A stretch of 64,000 nucleotides of DNA, taken from an uncultured Aquimarina sp. Its GTDB lineage: Bacteria; Bacteroidota; Bacteroidia; Flavobacteriales; Flavobacteriaceae. Within the stretch, counting starts at the first letter, position 1; every line of letters starts with the position of its first letter. Under the pieces are notes generated by a model. That model saw nothing but the letters and a program-made list of their open reading frames with translations, did no database searches and was not told the origin of the DNA. The DNA lies in contig NZ_CANLMP010000002.1 of the NCBI RefSeq assembly GCF_947492405.1, positions 930,001-994,000 of the forward strand, read 5' to 3'. This document shows positions 1 through 9,372 of this stretch, piece by piece. Both the position numbers and the translations under genes were made by a program.

Positions 1-740
1 CCTTTTTTTATGTATAAATCGAGTAGCCCTATTTTAAAGTCAATACGTTCACTGATCTCAATTCCTTTATCTGCATAATACAAGACTTCATCATACATTT
101 CTTTAGCTAGATATACATCATTAATAGTTGTATATACGCGTACATGATTTTCGCTGTTTACAAATGAAGTACGGTGAATGGTTTTAAGCATATGATCAGA
201 TATTTCAATGGCTTTGTCTAGCTGATTCATTCTTGCTAATACTACGATAAGCCCAGATTTAGCGATCATTTCTCGATCAATATCTCCTATCATATTTGCG
301 ATATCTATAGCTGCATAATATGAATCCAATGCCTGTTGGTTATCTCCTTCTAGTAGATACATATTCCCTTTTAAACTATATGCTTTTCCTAATTCTTTTA
401 ATTGGTTTTTTGCTTTCGCGATTTGTATCGTTTTATCCAAATATTGTAAGCTTTTTGGATGCGCTGCTTTATAATAGAAAAAAAGACCTATGTCATAATA
501 TTTTTCTGCAAGATTACCATCTGAATATCGATTGGTCAAAAGTGCTTTTTCATAGATCCCGGTTTCTTCTGGATATGTTTTTTTTATTAATTCTACTAGT
601 TCTTCGGCGGTTTTGTATCGTAAACTATCGGGAATTACTGTTGATTGTTCTTGCCCGTATGTTTTTGTTATTGAAAAAACGGATGCAAATACATAAAGAA
701 GTACATATTTAGGTATGCATCTTTTAACAAAAGAAATCAT
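1..740 (-). CDS. TPR-repeat sensor regulator, N-terminal part (runs off the window)
   Basis: The 5' part of a minus-strand gene whose 3' end lies beyond the left edge; about 246 codons are visible. It opens with a signal peptide (residues 1-30, ending around TYGQ) followed by a helical TPR array. It aligns closely, without visible gaps, to the first ~245 residues of the 573-residue TPR-AraC protein at 2169-3890: both share an early PDSL motif, then LDKA.EIS and YDxVLYY.xKGIE motifs. By that homology the missing part should hold a membrane segment and an AraC-type HTH domain, but this is inference. A TACATTTG box (765-772, minus), matching the Bacteroidetes -7 consensus, precedes it; the same box precedes the paralogue. 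Confidence 0.85.
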   Translation of the reverse strand, partial: MISFVKRCIPKYVLLYVFASVFSITKTYGQEQSTVIPDSLRYKTAEELVELIKKTYPEETGIYEKALLTNRYSDGNLAEKYYDIGLFFYYKAAHPKSLQYLDKTIQIAKAKNQLKELGKAYSLKGNMYLLEGDNQQALDSYYAAIDIANMIGDIDREMIAKSGLIVVLARMNQLDKAIEISDHMLKTIHRTSFVNSENHVRVYTTINDVYLAKEMYDEVLYYADKGIEISERIDFKIGLLDLYIKK

Positions 741-857
741 TTGAATCAATATTATGTGATGATCCAAATGTAATAATTACTTTCTTAAAAAGAGTTTATT
801 AGATCAATTACGGTATTTTTCGTATTGTAATCAAGACCTAACGAGATAATCACTTAA

Positions 858-892
858 AGAAAAGACTCTCCACTTATTGAAGAATCTTTTCT
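858..892 (-). terminator. hairpin downstream of the first peptide gene
   Basis: Twelve-base arms (858-869 and 881-892) pair with one mismatch around an 11-base loop, followed on the minus strand by a short T run. It lies 26 bases after the stop of the 45-residue peptide gene and before the partial TPR gene, so it probably ends the peptide transcript. Confidence 0.55.
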
Positions 893-917
893 AAAAAACA
901 TAAAATGTATTATGGCA

Positions 918-1055
918 TTAATGCATATGTATAGGTTGGCAATCAGGACCTCCCAACCAAATGCAGTGTGGATAATTGTTTCCTCCTTTTACAGATTGTT
1001 GCTTTTTCTTATCTATAATTGAGACACTATTCATCTCTAAAATTTTATCTAACAT
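918..1055 (-). CDS. small leader peptide precursor A (45 aa, GG motif)
   Basis: A 45-residue reading frame with an N-terminal leader (MLDKILEMNSVSIIDKKKQQ) ending in VKGG at residues 22-25, the classic double-glycine cleavage position of bacteriocin and RiPP precursors. The predicted 20-residue core has two cysteines (C31, C39), one Trp and several His and Pro. The leader aligns with that of the peptide at 1517-1699 (ML..ILE...VS....QQS), and both genes share a nearly identical upstream module. No modification enzyme or peptidase-containing transporter is visible in the window, so the type of product (disulfide, lanthionine or unmodified) is unknown. The gene is too short for routine gene callers. 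Confidence 0.7.
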   Translation of the reverse strand: MLDKILEMNSVSIIDKKKQQSVKGGNNYPHCIWLGGPDCQPIHMH

Positions 1056-1062
1056 ATCTAAG

Positions 1063-1127
1063 TGTTTTAAGTACCTACTCTATTATAAGGTTTTCGGTTT
1101 TCCCTTATCAAAATGGATTGTCGACAT
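1063..1127. repeat. duplicated upstream module, copy 1
   Basis: This ~65-bp block is nearly identical to 1707-1773; copy 2 has two extra bases near the middle. On the minus strand it ends 8 bases before the start of the 45-residue peptide gene; copy 2 ends 8 bases before the start of the 60-residue peptide gene. It contains a TATAATAG box and a GTCGAC palindrome at its distal end. The conservation and position suggest a shared promoter/operator region rather than coding sequence. Confidence 0.8.
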
Positions 1128-1131
1128 TACT

Positions 1132-1148
1132 TTTCAGAAAATCTGAAA
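1132..1148 (-). terminator. short hairpin after peptide B
   Basis: A perfect 7-base inverted repeat (TTTCAGA / TCTGAAA) with a 3-base loop sits 6 bases after the stop of the 1154-1336 gene. There is no T run after it on the minus strand, so it could equally be a regulatory dyad upstream of the next peptide gene. Confidence 0.35.
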
Positions 1149-1153
1149 CTCAA

Positions 1154-1336
1154 TTAATGTCTTATGCAAACTGGCATTGTACCAGGACCTGTTCGAGCAG
1201 TATTACCACAGGCATTCATTTCTGAAGGCGTACAGGTTATTGCAGAAGTAAAACCGGCTCCTCCTCTAACTTTATTAAGATTTAAATTACTAATCGTTTG
1301 TTTTTTTAGCTCTAAATTCTTTAATGATTTTTTCAT
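1154..1336 (-). CDS. small leader peptide precursor B (60 aa, lanthipeptide-type leader)
   Basis: A 60-residue precursor. Its leader carries the LELKKQTISNLN pattern typical of Bacteroidetes class I lanthipeptide and related natural-product precursors (the family with LxLxKxTIxxLN leaders), ending VRGG at residues 23-26. The core is rich in Thr, Ser, Gly and Ala with three Cys (TCTP, NACG, PVCI), consistent with lanthionine rings or disulfides. No LanB/LanC-type enzyme is present within this window, so modification is not shown. It lies in a run of four peptide genes on the same strand. Its upstream sequence differs from the duplicated module used by its neighbours. Confidence 0.8.
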   Translation of the reverse strand: MKKSLKNLELKKQTISNLNLNKVRGGAGFTSAITCTPSEMNACGNTARTGPGTMPVCIRH

Positions 1337-1516
1337 GATTTAATCGTGTGTTTTTAACTATATTATTGGAAATAAAATGGGATTAACTAAAAAGTGAAAA
1401 ACATATAATCTTTCAGTCTCAATCTATCGAATACCAAATAGGAACTAATAATTAAAAAAAACATAAACTCTATTTAATAACAATAAACTACTTTTTGCGT
1501 GACCTGATTTTTCGGA

Positions 1517-1699
1517 TTAATGTAGTATTTGATAGCACGTTCCATTTGCAGAACAAGTCCCAGTACAAGTCAAAAGACATTCAAAAAATTCTTCGCCTGG
1601 GCAAGTTGAACATCCATCTGGTCCTGCAGCAATAATAGATTGTTGCTCGCTTCTATTTAGTTTTGACACTCCTTTTAATTCTAAAATGTTATTAAGCAT
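1517..1699 (-). CDS. small leader peptide precursor C (60 aa, cysteine-rich)
   Basis: A 60-residue precursor with a bacteriocin-type leader (MLNNILELKGVSKLNRSEQQ) ending in AAG rather than GG. The core contains six cysteines in a close array (CSTC, EC, TC, TC, TC) with many Thr and Gly, which suits a multi-disulfide or thioether peptide. The leader is homologous to that of the 45-residue peptide at 918-1055 while the cores differ completely, a pattern seen where leaders are recognised by a common enzyme or exporter and cores diversify. The gene sits directly behind copy 2 of the duplicated upstream module. Confidence 0.8.
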   Translation of the reverse strand: MLNNILELKGVSKLNRSEQQSIIAAGPDGCSTCPGEEFFECLLTCTGTCSANGTCYQILH

Positions 1700-1706
1700 A
1701 ATTGTA

Positions 1707-1773
1707 TGTTTTAACTACCTACTCTATTATAAGGTTTTCGGTTTACCCTTTGATCAAAATAGACTGTCGACAT
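1707..1773. repeat. duplicated upstream module, copy 2
   Basis: The second copy of the ~65-bp block at 1063-1127. It begins 8 bases before the start of the cysteine-rich peptide gene on the minus strand. The two copies agree over almost all positions, including the TATAATAG box and the distal GTCGACA, with a two-base insertion between. Confidence 0.8.
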
Positions 1774-1814
1774 CGCTTTGATTGTGACACTAAGCTAGAT
1801 TGAAAAAAAGAGGA

Positions 1815-1854
1815 TCAAAAACAAAACAACCCTGTTTTGGATAAAACAGGGTTG
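1815..1854 (-). terminator. strong rho-independent terminator of peptide D
   Basis: A perfect 12-base stem (1827-1838 with 1843-1854) and a 4-base loop are followed on the minus strand by TTTTGTTTTT. It lies about 50 bases after the stop of the 49-residue peptide gene, so that gene has its own transcript end and is not simply co-transcribed with the downstream peptide genes. The left arm sequence CCCTGTTTTGGA recurs at 2131. Confidence 0.85.
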
Positions 1855-1905
1855 TAAAAAAACTCTGGAATATTGTAGGGTTTTTACTTTATCGTGTATA
1901 CTTAA

Positions 1906-2055
1906 TCAGGGATCTATCACACAAGGGTCATCATTGCTATGCATTGTGGTTGAAGGCAAACTACTTCCTCCTTTGATTTGATGCATCATATCTGCTTGAA
2001 TTCTAGCAATAGTTAGCTTTTTGAGACTGATTTTGTTGTTTTGTTGTTTCTTCAT
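1906..2055 (-). CDS. small leader peptide precursor D (49 aa, GG motif)
   Basis: A 49-residue frame whose first 30 residues look like a Bacteroidetes RiPP leader: a basic start, then ISLKKLTIARIQ (compare the LxLKKxTI pattern of precursor B), and IKGG at residues 27-30. The short core of 19 residues has a single cysteine near its end and is rich in Ser, Thr, Asp and Pro. It is the promoter-proximal member of the peptide run next to the complete TPR-AraC gene, from which it is separated by a weak hairpin. The leader pattern is the main evidence; the core is not recognised. Confidence 0.7.
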   Translation of the reverse strand: MKKQQNNKISLKKLTIARIQADMMHQIKGGSSLPSTTMHSNDDPCVIDP

Positions 2056-2130
2056 AAAAAGGTAATTAAGTTAATATACTGTTTCCTTCTTAAAGATATT
2101 TTTTATTAAACAGCCATCACAATACACCTA

Positions 2131-2152
2131 CCCTGTTTTGGACAAAAACGGG
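2131..2152 (-). terminator. weak hairpin after the TPR-AraC gene
   Basis: An 8-base stem with one bulged base (CCC-GTTTT / AAAAC-GGG) lies 17 bases beyond the stop of the TPR-AraC gene. Its left arm repeats the CCCTGTTTTGGA of the stronger hairpin at 1827. It lacks a T run on the minus strand, so termination is likely partial. Confidence 0.4.
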
Positions 2153-2168
2153 TTGCTTTTTGTACACT

Positions 2169-3890
2169 TTACGTAATGTGATTCTTCTGTGCTAACTTTT
2201 CTATATTCCTTATATAATAGGATGGATTCAATCCTGTTTTTGCTTTAAACCTTTTGGCAAAAGCATCGTCACTTTTATACCCTACCTCAGCAGCAATAGA
2301 CTTCACAGAAAAGGCTCTGAATTTTTTATCATTTTTTAAGCGTTGTAATGCATACTCAATTCTTAAATCTGTGATGTATTCATTAAAATTCTTTCCTTTA
2401 TGAGTATGGATAATCTTAGTTAAATACGTGGTATTCGTTTTCACCTTTTTGGCTGTGGTACTTAGGTTACATTCCGGTTTTAGAAAGTATTCCTGATGCT
2501 CCAACTTCTCCAAACCTTTTAATACTGCAGTAACCTTATCATCATCAATGAAAATAGATGTTTTCTTATTTTTCGTATTTTTTATTTTGTTTTCAACCTC
2601 TAAATGATTGATTTTTTCAACTAGCTTTGAAAATACAATTTTGTTAGTCTGCTGCTTTTTATAATATTTATATCCTATAAGTAATAGTCCTAAAAAAACC
2701 GCAATCATCACCATAAGCACATACGTGGTAATACTTCCTTTACTTTTAAGTTTTGCTATTTCTTCCTCATACTTTTCGGTTTCTCGCTCATAAATAGTAT
2801 CTACCGTTTTATCTTTTTCTTCCTGATACCTATTATTTAATTGTACATAGAGATTTTCCCAATAATGAGCTTGTTCGTACGCTTTCTTTTTAAGATAACA
2901 ATTGGCCAGTAACAAATGTGACTGGATGACAGGTAATTTCCCTAAATCTTCTTCCTTAATAAAATCCATGGTGTTGCATAAATAAGAAATTGCCTTCTCA
3001 TAGTTTTGCTGTTCACAATAACAAGCTGCCATATAATAATTGACTTTTACTCTTGGAAATAAGTTATTCGCAACCTCATGATGCTCCAAAATATCTTTAG
3101 CCTTATGTAGATTATCAAAAGCCTGACTGAAATCTTTTTTGTAATAATAGACAATCCCTTTTTTAATATACAAATCCACCAAACCTTCTTTAAAATCTAG
3201 TGATCTGCTAAGTTCAATGCCTTTATTTGAATAATATAATACAGAATCATATTGCTCCTTGTCTAAATATACTTCATTGATATTGGTAAGTATAGAAACA
3301 TGATCAATCCCATTTTTAAAGGATGTTTTATCAATGGCCCGTAACATTTCTTTAGAAATTTCTAAAGCTTTATCTAACCTATTCATTTTATGTAATACCA
3401 ATACAAGGCCTGAATTCGCAATAATTATATTTTCAGAATTTTCTTCTTTTTTAGCAATACTTACCGCTTCGTGATAATTGTTAAATGAATTCTGATGTTT
3501 TCCTTCTCTAAGAAATGTAGCCCCATTTAGTATATAACTCCAAAATGACAGGTTTTTATCATTTAGTTCATCCCCTATTTTATAGACTTTATTTGCATAT
3601 TTGATACTTCTTTTAAAATCTTCTTTTCTATAAAAATGAAACCCCAACCGAAGATAAAACTTGGCTGAGACTGAATCGTTCTTATGAAAACTCTTTAATA
3701 CTTCTTCATAAACTTCTATATAATCAGCATCAGAAGAGGTAATCAAGTCTACCAACGCTTCTGGAGTTTTAGTTTTTAGACTATCAGGAATGATGAATTT
3801 AGTATCCTGCGCGTTTGTAAAAACAGGTATTGCAATACATAGTAATAGGAAAATGGGAAATATCCGTGTTTTAAAAAAAGTCATTATCAT
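2169..3890 (-). CDS. TPR-repeat membrane regulator with AraC-type HTH
   Basis: A 573-residue protein with a signal peptide (1-28), a long array of TPR helices (~35-370) predicted to be periplasmic, one transmembrane helix (~388-409), and a cytoplasmic C-terminal AraC-family DNA-binding domain (~465-565, with a VKSIAAEVGYKSDDAFAKRF recognition segment). This TPR-TM-AraC layout is common in Flavobacteria and works as a one-protein transmembrane sensor. The partial gene at the left edge is its close paralogue, and the pair flanks the four peptide genes, so regulation of or by those peptides is an attractive inference. The target promoter is unknown; the duplicated modules at 1063 and 1707 are candidates. 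A TACATTTG box lies at 3910-3917 (minus). Confidence 0.9.
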   Translation of the reverse strand: MIMTFFKTRIFPIFLLLCIAIPVFTNAQDTKFIIPDSLKTKTPEALVDLITSSDADYIEVYEEVLKSFHKNDSVSAKFYLRLGFHFYRKEDFKRSIKYANKVYKIGDELNDKNLSFWSYILNGATFLREGKHQNSFNNYHEAVSIAKKEENSENIIIANSGLVLVLHKMNRLDKALEISKEMLRAIDKTSFKNGIDHVSILTNINEVYLDKEQYDSVLYYSNKGIELSRSLDFKEGLVDLYIKKGIVYYYKKDFSQAFDNLHKAKDILEHHEVANNLFPRVKVNYYMAACYCEQQNYEKAISYLCNTMDFIKEEDLGKLPVIQSHLLLANCYLKKKAYEQAHYWENLYVQLNNRYQEEKDKTVDTIYERETEKYEEEIAKLKSKGSITTYVLMVMIAVFLGLLLIGYKYYKKQQTNKIVFSKLVEKINHLEVENKIKNTKNKKTSIFIDDDKVTAVLKGLEKLEHQEYFLKPECNLSTTAKKVKTNTTYLTKIIHTHKGKNFNEYITDLRIEYALQRLKNDKKFRAFSVKSIAAEVGYKSDDAFAKRFKAKTGLNPSYYIRNIEKLAQKNHIT

Positions 3891-3974
3891 TATTGAGGAG
3901 TGTACCTCCCAAATGTAATCATTCTTTTTTGGACTTTTTTTTTAGGTAATAATCTCAAATAAAAAGGAACTTGT

Positions 3975-4358
3975 CTAAAAATTAATGGTACAACTCTGTG
4001 ATTGGCCAAACCATTTTACTCGGTTACGAGAGGCTAATTTATAAATTCCATCCCGAATCATTCTAGGAACAAATGCTAACAAAGCCGCTACACGTTTCCA
4101 TTTTGGAATTTTAGATACTATTTTTAAGAAACCATCCGAATGGGTATGTGATCCATTTTCGTCGATAAGAATTACGGTATCTAAACGTTCGGTCGGATAT
4201 CTATGTTTTCTGAGTAACTCCTGTCCTTGAGGAGATTGAAAAGGAATAAAATGAAAAAGATCTTCTGGCGCAAACTTCATTAACCACCCCACAACACCGT
4301 TACATAAATTACATTCGCCGTCAAATATGATAATACTTTTGTTAAAAGAAGTTTCCAT
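3975..4358 (-). CDS. DCC-family (DUF393) thiol-disulfide protein
   Basis: A 127-residue protein of the DCC family. It begins with the family motif FDGECNLCNGVV, with D13 and the cysteine pair C16 and C19, and retains the mid-protein pattern of a predicted thioredoxin-like fold (HFIPFQSPQGQ). Members are annotated as putative thiol-disulfide oxidoreductases; the substrate is unknown. It ends 85 bases before the TPR-AraC gene start and is followed upstream by the ABC transporter genes, with which it may be co-transcribed. Confidence 0.85.
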   Translation of the reverse strand: METSFNKSIIIFDGECNLCNGVVGWLMKFAPEDLFHFIPFQSPQGQELLRKHRYPTERLDTVILIDENGSHTHSDGFLKIVSKIPKWKRVAALLAFVPRMIRDGIYKLASRNRVKWFGQSQSCTINF

Positions 4359-4385
4359 TTTATTGATTTTTAAGTTTTTACACGG

Positions 4386-5054
4386 TTATAGTCGTATAGA
4401 ACCATCAATCATTTCAATACTACAGTGAGAATTATGATAAATTTTAGGATCATGGGTTGCGATGACCACTGCTTTATTTCTAGATCCCGTTATTTTTTTG
4501 AGTAACTCAAAAATTAATTCAGAGTTTTTTTGATCTAGATTTCCGGTAGGTTCATCAGCAATAATTAAGGCTGGATCATTAATAAGAGCTCTAGCAATAG
4601 CCACTCGCTGTTGTTGACCACCAGAAAGTTGATACGAAGGCCGTTTTGCAAAAGCTTTCATGCCTACTTCATCTAATAAACCTAAAGCGTTTTCTTTAAT
4701 CTCTTCTTTACTTTTTTGAGATAATTTCATTGCTGGAAGCATTACATTCTGTAGTACACTAAACTCGGGAAGTAAATAATGAAACTGATACACAAATCCA
4801 ATATGTTTATTTCTAAAATCAGTAAGAGCAGAAGGTGTCAAATTTTTAATATCCTGATTATATATATTTAAGTTTCCTTGGAAATCAGTATCTAAAGTCG
4901 ATAGGATATACAATAAGGTTGATTTTCCGCTTCCGGATTCTCCAAATACTGAAACCAGTTCTCCTTCGGAAATTGACAAAGAAATATCTCTTAATACCTG
5001 ATGCTTTTCTGGTTCCAAAAAATACTTATCTATATGTTGTGTTTCTAAAATCAT
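4386..5054 (-). CDS. ABC transporter ATP-binding protein (LolD/MacB-like)
   Basis: A 222-residue ATPase with Walker A GESGSGKST (38-46), signature LSGGQQQR (143-150) and Walker B IIADEP (164-169) followed by TGNLD. The QQQR signature and DEPTGNLD are typical of the LolD/MacB/FtsE group, which powers release or efflux of lipids, lipoproteins or peptides rather than uptake. Its start overlaps the stop of the permease gene by four bases, so the two are translationally coupled and form one transporter. Confidence 0.92.
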   Translation of the reverse strand: MILETQHIDKYFLEPEKHQVLRDISLSISEGELVSVFGESGSGKSTLLYILSTLDTDFQGNLNIYNQDIKNLTPSALTDFRNKHIGFVYQFHYLLPEFSVLQNVMLPAMKLSQKSKEEIKENALGLLDEVGMKAFAKRPSYQLSGGQQQRVAIARALINDPALIIADEPTGNLDQKNSELIFELLKKITGSRNKAVVIATHDPKIYHNSHCSIEMIDGSIRL

Positions 5055-6265
5055 ATTCCTCTAATAATCGTTACAGGATCTACCTTGCTTGCTTTTTTTG
5101 AAGGAAAATATCCTGCAAAAATAGTTGTTAATATTCCAAAGAAAAACCCTAATATATAATATGACATCTTAAAATTAATCGGATAGGTATCTACAATTAT
5201 AAAATCTGATGTATCCAATGGTGTGGTAGAAATTAAATAACTAATTATGTATCCAAAAAAACCTCCAAAAAACGCACCCAATACCCCGATAATCAGCGAT
5301 TGCACAAGAAAAATGAATACAATATCATTGCTAGAATATCCAATGGTTTTTAGCACTGCAATGTCTTTTCTCTTCTGGATCACTGTAATATTAAGAATAT
5401 TATAAATTCCAAATCCTGCCACTAAAAGCAATGCAAAAGAAACAGACCAGGTAAGTATGTCACGAACCTTATTCCCTATCACAATCGTCTTGTTGCTATC
5501 TTTCCAATCTTCTGTTACAATACCATTAATATTTTCTGCTAAATAGCTTTTTAGACGAACGTCATCTCTATCTTTCAGTTTTACATGAATATTCGTAATA
5601 CTATTTTTTTTGCCTAATAAATTCTGTAATGTAGTTGCAGAGACATACGTTCTTACATTATCTATAGTGGTAATCCCAAAACTAAATACACCTGCAACTT
5701 TTAGTGCAGTGTTCTTACCATTAGGAAGTATCATTTTTATTTCATCTCCCGTAGAAATCTGTAATCGTTTGGCCAAACTAACTCCTAAAAGAATCGAATT
5801 TTCTTTTAACAAGCTCTGAAAACCTTCTCCTTCTATTAACCGTCTTTCTAGGTCTACCATATTACTTTCCTGAGCGGGAAAAATTCCATTGATACTCCCT
5901 GGGAACTGCTTAGATTCGCTAATCAAGATTGCGGGCGAAATAATTTGGTGAGCAAAGGATTGAACATTCTCATCAGCTTTCAGGACATCATCAACCTTAT
6001 TACTATTTTCTATATAATTGGATAGTATATTAGAAGTTGTAGTAGATTGTTTTTTTGATTTTGCGCTAACTATTATATCTGGGCTTCCATTAAAAACTGC
6101 ATCATCAAGAAAATCGTTTACACCTGTCATAAAATTGATCATAACAATAAAAGTTGTTACACCCAACAGAACTCCTATTGCAGCTAAAAAGCTTTGCTTC
6201 TTTCTTGCAAATAAGTATTGTAACGCTATGAATATGTTTGTTTTATTAAAAACTTGTTTAGACAT
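5051..6265 (-). CDS. ABC transporter permease (FtsX/MacB-PCD type)
   Basis: A 404-residue permease with the FtsX/LolC topology: one N-terminal membrane helix (~25-50), a large extracytoplasmic domain (~55-265), and three C-terminal helices (~272-295, 320-345, 368-390). The segment VIQKRKDIAVLKTIGYS just after the second helix is the conserved coupling region of this family. It is the partner of the ATPase that follows by a four-base overlap. The substrate cannot be told from sequence; lipoprotein release, lipid or peptide transport are all possible. Confidence 0.88.
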   Translation of the reverse strand: MSKQVFNKTNIFIALQYLFARKKQSFLAAIGVLLGVTTFIVMINFMTGVNDFLDDAVFNGSPDIIVSAKSKKQSTTTSNILSNYIENSNKVDDVLKADENVQSFAHQIISPAILISESKQFPGSINGIFPAQESNMVDLERRLIEGEGFQSLLKENSILLGVSLAKRLQISTGDEIKMILPNGKNTALKVAGVFSFGITTIDNVRTYVSATTLQNLLGKKNSITNIHVKLKDRDDVRLKSYLAENINGIVTEDWKDSNKTIVIGNKVRDILTWSVSFALLLVAGFGIYNILNITVIQKRKDIAVLKTIGYSSNDIVFIFLVQSLIIGVLGAFFGGFFGYIISYLISTTPLDTSDFIIVDTYPINFKMSYYILGFFFGILTTIFAGYFPSKKASKVDPVTIIRGI

Positions 6266-6358
6266 ATCTCATAGGTCGGCAAAATAAGGATAGAATTACA
6301 GAAGTATGTTAATAGAAAATAAGTTTTGTAATTAGAAAACCTTTATCAGTTCAAAAAG

Positions 6359-6721
6359 TTATTTTTTCTTTTTACTGCTTTTTGCCAAAGGATTAAAATC
6401 TAAGCATAATTGTAGCCAGTATTCCAGATCTTCATCCAGATCAAACCCATCTGCCGTTACAAAAACATATCCTTTCATTGGTCTGCCTGTAAAATCCATA
6501 GGATGACAACCTTCTCTTTTTATTGCTTCTGCATATGCTTCCTCTCCTATACGAGCCATCAAAAGATCTGTTTCCTTCTTTTTATCATAATGGATTCCAC
6601 AACACATCTTATTATCCACCATAAAACAGAGACCTCCCATCATTTTTTTTGTATAGAAACTCGCTCTTTTTTCTTTTAGCGTTTGATGAATCCGATCAGC
6701 TATATATTCGCTGTATGCCAT
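6359..6721 (-). CDS. TfoX N-terminal domain family protein
   Basis: A 120-residue protein matching the TfoX/Sxy N-terminal domain: the conserved TKKMMGGLCFMVDNKMCCGI region, the MARIG segment and the PMDFTGRPMKGYVFV stretch are all present. The C-terminus ends in a Lys-rich tail. In Proteobacteria TfoX regulates competence, but stand-alone N-terminal-domain proteins like this one are widespread and of unknown role. Its ATG shares a base with the stop codon of the DUF2461 gene (TAATG), so the two are coupled. Confidence 0.85.
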   Translation of the reverse strand: MAYSEYIADRIHQTLKEKRASFYTKKMMGGLCFMVDNKMCCGIHYDKKKETDLLMARIGEEAYAEAIKREGCHPMDFTGRPMKGYVFVTADGFDLDEDLEYWLQLCLDFNPLAKSSKKKK

Positions 6722-7386
6722 TATTGAATTGCTTTTGTTAAATATTCATTTACAGGATGCATCACTTTCCAATACGTCATAAGTTCATCTATAAGAGATT
6801 CACTAGTAATAAGAGATGGAGCTTCTTCTCCGACAAAATAAAATTGTTTGTTGGCAATCAAAGGTTCTTTTTTATAGGTTTCTTTCCATTCTTTAGGAAT
6901 TCGTTTCAAAGCTCTGCCTTTGATCTCTCCAAACTTTTGAACAAAATCACTATTCTCTATTAATCTTCTAAATTCTGAAGGATCCTGGTTAATTTTGGTC
7001 CTTACATTGTATAATTGTTCTTTCGAAATACCAAAACATCCTCCCATAATTCCAACCATTTCTGGAGAAAAACGTAAAAACATCCCTGGAACACTCTTGT
7101 CCTTACGACCACCTCTGGATACAAATGCAGTATAATGTAAGTTATATGGTGATTTATCTTTAGAAAAACGAATATCATTATGAATACGAAGTATACAATC
7201 CTTAGGCATAATCTCTAACTTAGGATCATATTTTTGTATTTCCTGAATCATTTTGCCTATAAAAATCTCAAAAGGTATCTTGATGCTTGCTTCATATCTC
7301 TTTTTATGAGCGTGAAACCATTCTTTATGATTATTCTCTGATAGTTCTTCAAAAAAATCGACAAAATCATTGGTGAAATATTGCAT
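6721..7386 (-). CDS. DUF2461 family protein
   Basis: A 221-residue protein of the DUF2461 family (TIGR02453-like), with the characteristic FFEELSENNHKEWFHAHKKRYE beginning (split here only by reading) and the RIHNDIRFSKDKSPY motif around residues 65-80. The function of the family is not established. It overlaps the following TfoX-domain gene by one base, and both are likely on one transcript. Confidence 0.88.
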   Translation of the reverse strand: MQYFTNDFVDFFEELSENNHKEWFHAHKKRYEASIKIPFEIFIGKMIQEIQKYDPKLEIMPKDCILRIHNDIRFSKDKSPYNLHYTAFVSRGGRKDKSVPGMFLRFSPEMVGIMGGCFGISKEQLYNVRTKINQDPSEFRRLIENSDFVQKFGEIKGRALKRIPKEWKETYKKEPLIANKQFYFVGEEAPSLITSESLIDELMTYWKVMHPVNEYLTKAIQ

Positions 7387-7523
7387 AAACTAAATTACTA
7401 TTATTTAAATATTAATCAAACTGTTAGTTAGAGTGAAATCAAAAACTGTATGCTATTGATTATGTATTATAATTTCAAAATTACTTCTTTTAGACTTCAC
7501 TCTAAATAACAACTAACACTATA

Positions 7524-7886
7524 CTAAGACATAGAGTGAAACGCTACTCGATTTCCCTCTGTATCAAGAAAAATAGCCATAAAGCCGTTTTCTCCAATAG
7601 AAGTTTTTGGCATTAAAACCTTTCCTCCTGCCTTCTCTACTCGAGCTAATGGAACAGATAAATCTTCTCCTCCATTAAGGTATGCAAATGTTCCTTCTTG
7701 AGAAGGAGTGTTTCCATTTCCGTGTGTTACGCAACCTCCTACGCCTCCAGCCTTATATGGGAAAAAGGCCATTTTAAATTCCATATCCATAGGTTGAAGC
7801 TCTGTCTCTAAAAGTTCGCTGTAAAACTTTACTGCTCTTTCAAAATTGGTACTTGGTATTTCAAACCAGCTAATTGCATTTGACAT
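7524..7886 (-). CDS. VOC-family (glyoxalase-like) protein
   Basis: A 120-residue single-domain protein of the vicinal oxygen chelate superfamily: it starts with WFEIPSTNFERAVKFYSELL, a typical first beta-alpha unit, and ends with GENGFMAIFLDTEGNRVAFHS, a typical metal-side strand. Members bind a metal and act as glyoxalases, dioxygenases or resistance proteins; closest in pattern are the PhnB/YdcJ-like predicted enzymes. The reaction is unknown. Divergent from the next gene. Confidence 0.85.
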   Translation of the reverse strand: MSNAISWFEIPSTNFERAVKFYSELLETELQPMDMEFKMAFFPYKAGGVGGCVTHGNGNTPSQEGTFAYLNGGEDLSVPLARVEKAGGKVLMPKTSIGENGFMAIFLDTEGNRVAFHSMS

Positions 7887-7980
7887 ATATAATATATTGT
7901 ATTGATTAAGAATATCTCAAAGGTATACGATAGAAGTCAGTAAGAAAAACATTATTTTTGAAAAAACATAGGTTTCTAAA

Positions 7981-9372
7981 ATGAAAAAAAACGAAGAATT
8001 ATTCTTTCTGATAAAGTCATTGACTAAAAGCGAAAAACGTTATTTTAAAGTAAACGCAGTAGGAAATGAAACATCAGAATACATACTATTATTTAATGCA
8101 ATTGATGCTCAAAAAAAATATAACGAAGCCGAAATTAAAGAGTTATTTAAAAACAAAGCATTTACGAATCAATTAACCACAATAAAAAATTACTTAAAGC
8201 AACGTATTTTACAATCTTTAAGAAATTATCATGCTCGAATTTCTATACAAGCAGAATTAACAGACATTCTACGTAATATAGAAATTTTATTTCATAAAGG
8301 CTTATATACCGTTTGCGAAAGCGAACTAAATCGAGCAGAGAAAAAAGCGATACATTTCCAACAAGATTTATTATTATTTCAACTTCGGGATTGGAAAAGA
8401 AAAGTACATCAGGCGTTATATCCGCAGGATTTCGAAACTTTAAAAAACATTGTCTCAAAACAAAAAACTTCACTTAACTCAACCGTAGAGTATATCAATC
8501 TTTTATTAGCAAATATTGATCCCATAAATTTCTCTTTATCTCATAAAAAAACACATCGAATTCAGAACAAAACACTAAAAACCCTTCATATATATCGAAA
8601 ACAGCTTGCAGCAAAAAACTATGAAAAAGCAAAACATACTATAGAAAAACTCATAAAAGAATGGGAACAGAATCCGAAACTACTAAAAGAGTATTTCACC
8701 ACTTACTTCTCGGTCTACAACAACTATCTTGGGTATCTGGTATTTAAAAACTTACACAAAGAAGCTTTTGTTAGAATTTTACTATTAAAACAAAAAGCAA
8801 AAGAAATTACAACTTCTTCTGCTTCCTTAATAAAAGAAACTTTGCGGCTTTATAACATTGAACTCGAGATCCATAGAAACCTTAAAGATCTTCACAATAC
8901 GCAAGAGATGATTGAGAATATTCAGGAATTCATTAGCAATAACAAAACGATGATCCCTGCTAATTACTGGCTTTCTTTCCGCTTTCAATTTGCCAACATA
9001 TACTTTCAGAAAAAAGATTATAAAAAGGCATTACATTGGATCAATGATATTCTTAATTGTCAAACCAAAAAAGATCGAAAAGATTTAATTACTTATACAT
9101 ACTGGCTTAATCTATTAGTACATTATGAACTCCAAAATGAATTTACTTTGAGATACTTGATTGATGCTATCAAAAAACATTTAAAAAAGCAAAAAAACAT
9201 AGAATCCTATGAGAAATTATTATTAAAGTTTTTATCAAAAACTGTTGAATATCCTGAAAAAGAAAAGAAAAAAGCATTTGATCAACTTTCTGAACAATTA
9301 AAGGAAGACCCGGTTCCTAAGTATATTATTGGATATCTAGATTTTAATGATTGGATTAATCATAAATATTAG
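7981..9372 (+). CDS. conserved hypothetical helical-repeat protein
   Basis: A 463-residue, Lys-rich, almost wholly helical protein without signal peptide or membrane segment. It begins KKNEELFFLIKSLTKSEKRYFK, a start seen in a family of uncharacterised Bacteroidetes proteins, and its later part looks like degenerate TPR hairpins (for example YKKALHWINDILN). A TATTTTTG box at 7953-7960 fits the -7 consensus, though no good -33 box is visible. The stop overlaps the end of the convergent response regulator by four bases. Function unknown. Confidence 0.75.
   Translation: MKKNEELFFLIKSLTKSEKRYFKVNAVGNETSEYILLFNAIDAQKKYNEAEIKELFKNKAFTNQLTTIKNYLKQRILQSLRNYHARISIQAELTDILRNIEILFHKGLYTVCESELNRAEKKAIHFQQDLLLFQLRDWKRKVHQALYPQDFETLKNIVSKQKTSLNSTVEYINLLLANIDPINFSLSHKKTHRIQNKTLKTLHIYRKQLAAKNYEKAKHTIEKLIKEWEQNPKLLKEYFTTYFSVYNNYLGYLVFKNLHKEAFVRILLLKQKAKEITTSSASLIKETLRLYNIELEIHRNLKDLHNTQEMIENIQEFISNNKTMIPANYWLSFRFQFANIYFQKKDYKKALHWINDILNCQTKKDRKDLITYTYWLNLLVHYELQNEFTLRYLIDAIKKHLKKQKNIESYEKLLLKFLSKTVEYPEKEKKKAFDQLSEQLKEDPVPKYIIGYLDFNDWINHKY

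Follow-up and report, generated by a model that had tools for sequence, protein, structure and literature searches.

The first few thousand nucleotides (nt) of a 64,000-nt stretch of the 6.37 Mb genome of an uncultured Aquimarina sp. (contig NZ_CANLMP010000002.1, positions 930,001 to 994,000; here called the window) hold four very short genes, p1 to p4, set between two regulators of the tetratricopeptide repeat (TPR)-membrane-AraC type. The arrangement raises the question of what the short genes encode and what switches them on. The annotation covered window positions 1-8000 and the DNA left of the window, which is contained in locus L011; "the annotated stretch" below means these two parts. 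We consider it moderately probable that the cluster is under peptide autoinduction by a one-component TPR-membrane-AraC receptor, with the RNA element DUF805b as a second control layer. This reading rests on the parts of the locus, their conservation, linkage and co-variation, and on the domain order of the regulators.

In the direction of transcription the order is right regulator, p4, p3, p2, p1, left regulator, p5, p6, LanC, LanB-N, LanB-C. The genes p5 (51 amino acids, aa) and p6 (61 aa) and the three enzyme genes lie left of the window on one common strand, and groups of these genes may form operons. The initial annotation had described four minus-strand frames, three with leaders ending in Gly-Gly (GG) and one in AAG; p1 to p4 are ATG frames with GG at the leader end of p1, p2 and p4 and AAG at that of p3, and their coordinates and leader patterns are as it claimed. 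The two bracketing regulators are indeed paralogous (near full-length homology, 47-49% identity), and in the genome sequence the left one, cut by the window edge, continues as an open reading frame. Lack of conservation had been named as the observation that would speak against the four frames. All four are conserved in other genomes under purifying selection; the ratio of nonsynonymous to synonymous change (pN/pS) against the nearest homologue is 0.21 for p1, 0.16 for p2 and 0.15 for p3 (L050 in each case) and 0.40 for p4 (L055). Homologues elsewhere with ratios this low show that the four frames are genes.

The proposal that they are precursors of ribosomally synthesized and post-translationally modified peptides (RiPPs) or bacteriocins gained support, with the refinement that there is not one class but three kinds of peptide. 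By their sequences, p2 and p6 look like the lanthipeptide precursors of the locus (common leader MKKSLKNLEL.KQTISNL), p1 and p3 are Cys-containing bacteriocin-like peptides (MLxxILExxxVS....QQS), and p4 and p5 (LKKLTIARI) belong to the LKKLTIA peptides that accompany regulators.

Regulators and their LKKLTIA peptides

The pairing of regulator and LKKLTIA peptide was followed in 43 loci from other genomes (L053-L095; regulator identity at least 38%). With a regulator-end pattern, 40 of the 43 loci yielded 55 regulators on the locus strand, and an LKKLTIA peptide lies directly downstream of 52 of them (48 by a strict pattern, within 420 nt, and four by eye). The three without one are a regulator in L064 and a tandem pair in L073. 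No regulator was picked up by the pattern in L088, L089 and L092, yet the peptide is present there. Regulator and peptide are 94-393 nt apart, mainly 110-185 nt, and the peptide occurs both in loci with LanB/LanC nearby and in loci without them nearby. Since the peptide consistently goes with the regulator, whatever the type of effector, the simplest reading is that of a signal and its receptor. Among the 15 best full-length TPR-AraC proteins of the own genome, nine (window right and left, L003, L004, L007, L225, L226, L227 and L228) have a GG peptide behind them whose leader is related and whose core differs, and pairs also occur in Kordia, Dokdonia and Lacinutrix relatives. No publication on this pairing or on such a Bacteroidota receptor was found among the matches listed, most subscription journals being outside the search. 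In a paper on Bacteroidales RiPPs, TPR genes near clusters are mentioned as possible pheromone-linked regulators (PMC10352776).

Peptide and receptor also vary together. Over 56 pairs, the distance between LKKLTIA cores correlated with TPR distance at r 0.77 and with helix-turn-helix (HTH) distance at 0.63; the partial correlation was 0.59 for TPR given HTH and 0.19 for HTH given TPR. When only 120 random TPR columns were used (30 draws), the partial value averaged 0.56, with a minimum of 0.48. For the 51 pairs that are followed by a DUF805b peptide, TPR distance correlated with the distance of the LKKLTIA core at r 0.79, of the next peptide's core at 0.61 and of the LKKLTIA leader at 0.58, and among pairs more than 30% apart these values were 0.65, 0.37 and 0.27. 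The co-variation is consistent with ligand-receptor co-diversification and falls short of proof because linked genes share descent.

TPR repeats were found by Pfam in both regulators (TPR_12, E 1.4e-20), as was a C-terminal AraC HTH in the right one, with which the left aligned through the same region. A simple scan of four regulators gave one strong transmembrane (TM) stretch each, and an N-terminal hydrophobic helix passed the threshold in two of the four. The AlphaFold model (29 sequences; mean predicted local distance difference test, pLDDT, 87; predicted template modelling score, pTM, 0.62) consists of helix 3-25, the TPR domain, a long helix 338-435 through the membrane and the terminal HTH. 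The best 35 named-record matches of the regulator are all from Aquimarina, with identity up to 80%. From this domain order the TPR domain would be periplasmic and the AraC domain cytoplasmic. A protein that crosses the inner membrane in this way, with a cytoplasmic AraC domain at its end, would combine sensor and activator in one molecule. The earlier inference of a peptide-based locus with its own membrane sensors is supported.

The RRNPP proteins (Rap, NprR, PlcR, Rgg) are cytoplasmic TPR peptide sensors, the regulators among them having an N-terminal HTH. The likeness lies in the TPR superhelix; Rap and NprR are among the profile and structural matches, in Foldseek searches of the PDB ranking below designed TPRs and LGN/Pins, and peptide binding is putative here. 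RRNPP membership was rejected on topology, given the signal helix, the TM segment at 387-405 and the C-terminal AraC HTH of the present regulators. In nisin and subtilin systems the peptide product induces its own cluster through a two-component kinase and response regulator. A peptide may likewise induce its own cluster here, whereas the apparatus is a single TPR-membrane-AraC protein with a separate small peptide.

It is also conceivable, if unlikely, that LKKLTIA peptides are further lanthipeptides or bacteriocins (for example the partner in a two-peptide system) and that the regulators sense envelope damage, competitors or surface contact. The family search proposed by the initial annotation bears on this: p4 (29.5 bits), p5 (22.2) and a peptide of L013 (22.4) pass NF038153, the NCBIfam model of class I lanthipeptide leaders (cut-off 22 bits), and in 56 of 56 LKKLTIA cores examined a Cys has Ser/Thr ahead of it. 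Distribution fits this view as it fits autoinduction. The close regulator clade (at least 590 bits, the next match 312) occurs in 25 of 57 genus genomes, and LanB_N is present in all 25, compared with 18 of the 32 others (Fisher p 8e-5); with genomes at least 90% complete the figures are 25/25 and 16/25 (p 0.0016). A search for regulator-bearing genomes without LanB, which would have excluded LanB/LanC modification of the LKKLTIA peptides there, found none, either in this genus sample or among ten genomes picked by locus (LanB_N in 10/10). Against the idea of an additional lanthipeptide, the peptide tracks the regulator and not the enzymes, being kept without LanB/LanC nearby and before differing bacteriocin-type genes. 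LKKLTIA-type peptides with other cores stand beside distant paralogues, and the cores are similar in length (17-33 aa) and in charge (negative in 53/56). If the LKKLTIA peptide is a signal, its mature form might be linear, disulphide-bonded or a lanthionine form.

The DUF805b element and the promoters

The Rfam cis-regulatory element DUF805b (RF02914, clan CL00115) lies 16 nt ahead of the ATG at p1 and p3, with full-length matches above the gathering score (Table 1), and it precedes p6 as well. The Rfam structure line printed by cmscan contains a stem only; to this description we add a pseudoknot and an association with genes for GG peptides and exported proteins. In 99 unique elements, stem pairs S1 and S3 were Watson-Crick in 95 and 96 (shuffle maxima 51 and 57) and S4 in 73 (maximum 66), S2 was nearly invariant, and the outermost pair, S5, gave no excess over shuffles. 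The pseudoknot joins a loop triplet NCC to a tail GGN'. Its variable pair is Watson-Crick in 81 of the 99 elements and standard in 89 (GC 33, AT 26, TA 18, GU 8, CG 4); shuffles averaged 31.3 with a maximum of 50, and 0 of 2000 reached 81. Because the elements are related by descent, shuffles overstate the significance somewhat, yet each of the four Watson-Crick types is represented. C-G is almost invariant at the two remaining pairs, 89 elements have standard pairs at all three positions (ten exceptions), and adjacent tail columns that were tried showed no comparable pairing excess. A variant with loop-tail TCT/AGA, a double change preserving pairing, was seen at the LKKLTIA peptides of L053, L055, L056 and L061.

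Upstream sequences suggest where the element lies in the transcript. TGGCA-N6-7-TTG boxes, which we take to resemble sigma-54 promoters, precede 10 of 103 elements (0.12 expected from shuffles), and in nine of the ten they end 12-15 nt before DUF805b, so that the element there begins about where transcription should start. At many regulator-linked copies TTTTGAT stands immediately upstream in place of this box; one RNA under different promoters argues for a function as RNA. The rival notion of a DNA operator for the regulator seems very improbable to us. The sequence is strongly conserved in regulator loci, and with an exact-type pattern (up to 3 mismatches) the own genome gave five matches, reversed control none, all five preceding precursors in three regulator loci, a distribution that fits autoinduction as well. 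Yet the stem and loop-tail pairs co-vary, the linker ranges from 1 to 10 nt, so that spacing varies by 9 nt, and promoter boxes of either kind precede the element at the positions just described. The covariance model moreover found 17 places in the own genome, 13 over the cut-off, with five of the 13 in regulator loci and eight outside clade-A regulator loci. The operator was dropped as the main reading after the Rfam match and the stem and loop-tail co-variation.

Genomes with DUF805b over the cut-off number 49 of 57 in the genus sample, 111 of 249 in the family sample and 59 of 296 in a sample of the phylum; of 14 controls, none had it. First genes after the element were classified in 104 loci (L114-L217), made up of the 17 own-genome matches (4 below the cut-off) and the best matches of other genomes, and skewed to Aquimarina (46/104): 37 small GG/AG peptides (a few of these calls, L168, L169 and L170, being doubtful), 32 signal/TM proteins, 12 lipoproteins, 19 others and 4 with none. 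A stricter rule gave 30, 33, 12, 25 and 4 in the same order. The export bias of the longer genes is modest (34/50 versus 63/134 own-genome genes, p 0.013, by a crude hydrophobicity classifier). No publication on DUF805b function was found among the matches listed, with most subscription journals outside the search.

Several of these loci merit mention in their own right. At G000:C5:414247 (L118) the element stands before genes for two GG peptides and for a 327-aa protein resembling, by eye, an ATP-grasp RiPP enzyme, with no Pfam match at E 1e-5. At G000:C1:716649 (L128) a sub-threshold element (34.1 bits) precedes a GG peptide and a radical SAM protein (PF04055, E 2.4e-15). A sigma-54-like box and DUF805b stand before a conserved protein, 214-249 aa long and apparently secreted, in L126, L163, L175, L179, L182, L186, L188, L205 and L213; this protein occurs in several genera, with a pattern like FxERGxEFxIFPDGxxDFNT. 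A lipoprotein with an ESDCNECSV segment lies under DUF805b (40.5 bits) at L012:1687-3168, and a homologue with DUF805b was found in another Aquimarina (L024).

Two further motifs are enriched at the promoters of regulator loci. A motif search was trained on about half of the loci and tested on held-out promoters. With a score of at least 6, the motif at about -45, TACTTTAG..TC.AAATCAAA, was present in 17 of the 35 linked promoters held out, in 5 of 86 other promoters with DUF805b and in 6 of 121 shuffled ones; for an inverted repeat about 100 nt upstream of the element (score at least 8) the counts were 25/30, 2/86 and 2/116, respectively. As the held-out promoters share homology with those used for training and are not independent, these rates show conservation and specificity and not independent discovery. 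The control of other promoters is conservative because Aquimarina elements possibly in regulator loci (e.g., L149) were left in. The p3 promoter has both motif and repeat. Since the arms of the repeat vary together, it may be merely the terminator of the preceding gene.

Lanthipeptide enzymes and possible export

Extension of the sequence to the left, proposed by the initial annotation in search of modification genes, revealed LanC and a split LanB 2-6.4 kb from the window, together with the precursors p5 and p6. The cyclase LanC matched PF05147 (E 4.3e-52) and contains the motifs WCYG and CHG, presumably the zinc-ligand positions. The glutamylation and elimination parts of the dehydratase are supplied by adjacent genes for the LanB N-domain (PF04738, E 2.4e-142) and a separate C-domain (PF14028, E 9.1e-73). 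A recognised leader with a Ser/Thr- and Cys-containing core is provided by p4 and p5. By these matches the locus looks like a class I lanthipeptide/bacteriocin cluster. NF038153 scores were below the cut-off for p2 (12.6 bits) and p6 (15.9), though both cores hold Ser/Thr and Cys; in the NCBIfam scan p1 and p3 matched no family, and p2 matched only below cut-offs. The claim that the window holds no modification enzyme agrees with its annotated left end, the enzymes lying just outside.

Class I leaders with LxLxK and GG have been described in Bacteroidetes, and the pinensin-type clusters of Bacteroidota resemble the present one in their split LanB, LanC and GG leaders with LxLxK (PMC7268733). 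The present locus differs in its three leader types among several precursors, in its regulator-linked LKKLTIA peptides, in its DUF805b leaders and in that no exporter or leader protease was seen in the annotated stretch. Precursors with GG leaders modified by radical SAM enzymes (TIGR04149) show weak leader similarity, below the cut-off, and no radical SAM enzyme was seen in the annotated stretch.

The initial annotation had likewise found no exporter in the window. An ABC transporter at 4386-6265 was rejected as a candidate, its best NCBIfam matches being LolD and LolC/E-like, below cut-offs. Six C39-peptidase matches in the genome exceed the cut-off, and two of these, on C10 and C8, are full exporters by Pfam, with C39, ABC membrane and ATPase domains; neither is in the precursor locus. 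Export of the GG peptides of the locus by these unlinked proteins is possible. Some 1.7 kb separate the C10 exporter gene (G000:C10:1-9000, L227) from a distant TPR-AraC regulator, which has a GG peptide of its own. These data also bear on the improbable case that the LKKLTIA peptide is not secreted and acts as an intracellular or periplasmic modulator, or anti-activator, of the adjoining regulator. Tight positional coupling and the lack of an exporter in the annotated stretch would fit such a role, whereas a GG leader end is typical of C39 export and the genome encodes two three-domain C39-peptidase ABC exporters, the one on C10 close to a regulator-peptide pair.

A solitary GG-leader frame (MKKLKNMRALTREELIKIQGG) lies left of the window on the opposite strand (L011:11411-11569, +), immediately past the LanB C-domain gene. 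Features inside the window are listed in Table 1.

Table 1. Features at the left end of the window (positions are those of the 64,000-nt stretch)
Feature	Position	Strand	Remarks
Left TPR-TM-AraC regulator, N-terminal part	1..740	-	Full frame L011:17007-18767, extends left of the window
p1	918..1055	-	45 aa; EQ/GG-type Cys-containing precursor; homologues in L048, L050, L153
DUF805b (RF02914) before p1	1072..1107	-	46.2 bits, E 3.5e-11; gathering score 35.6
p2	1154..1336	-	60 aa; lanthipeptide-type precursor (MKKSLKNLELKKQTIS...RGG); paralogue of p6
p3	1517..1699	-	60 aa; EQ/AAG-type peptide; core with six Cys
DUF805b before p3	1716..1751	-	48.0 bits, E 8.8e-12; p2 downstream without an element of its own
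Candidate regulator site TAGCTTAGTGTCACAATCAAAG	1776..1797	-	46 nt before the DUF805b stem of p3
Inverted repeat, ~100 nt upstream of DUF805b	1828..1853	-	p4 terminator and/or upstream control site
p4	1906..2055	-	49 aa; GG peptide of the LKKLTIA type; candidate autoinducer for the right regulator
Right TPR-TM-AraC regulator	2169..3890	-	573 aa; signal helix, TPR 36-334, TM 387-405, HTH 450-571

Proposed mechanism and its meaning

In the autoinduction that we propose, p4 (or p5 for the left regulator) would be made with its LKKLTIA leader and cleaved behind the GG, and an unlinked transporter of the C39 type would export it, perhaps once LanB/LanC have modified it. The regulator whose gene lies directly upstream would detect the mature peptide with its periplasmic TPR domain and activate the promoters before p1, p3-p2 and p6-LanC-LanB. 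The mRNAs of these three units would start with the DUF805b pseudoknot, which may serve as the second, post-transcriptional control layer.

Several observations weigh against this proposal. Neither p1 nor p6 has more than a weak -45 motif, the inverted repeat could be nothing more than a terminator, and the promoter rates carry the limit given above. The nearest TPR folds by Foldseek are generic peptide binders. The correlation of core and TPR can stem from joint inheritance, and the core of the neighbouring peptide correlates too (r 0.61, all pairs). Six of the 15 own-genome paralogues have no such peptide (L005, L006, L008, L009, L010, L224), and the L061 regulator frame contains a stop codon. 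Finally, p4 has no DUF805b, which does precede LKKLTIA peptides in the four loci with the TCT/AGA variant.

We suggest more tentatively, and with some doubt, that pairs of TPR-membrane-AraC protein and GG peptide make up a large family of one-component, membrane-embedded receptors for peptide pheromones, each with its cognate signal, and that, in addition, Bacteroidota commonly use the DUF805b pseudoknot to switch the genes of exported social peptides and proteins at the post-transcriptional level. The proposal offers a testable Bacteroidota peptide receptor whose ligand and receptor genes are adjacent. The orphan RNA DUF805b gains a structure (the pseudoknot), a likely position at the mRNA start and a recurring set of genes behind it, so that one can look for its ligand or partner. 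Knowledge of the inducer could aid the expression of lanthipeptide clusters of marine Flavobacteriaceae.

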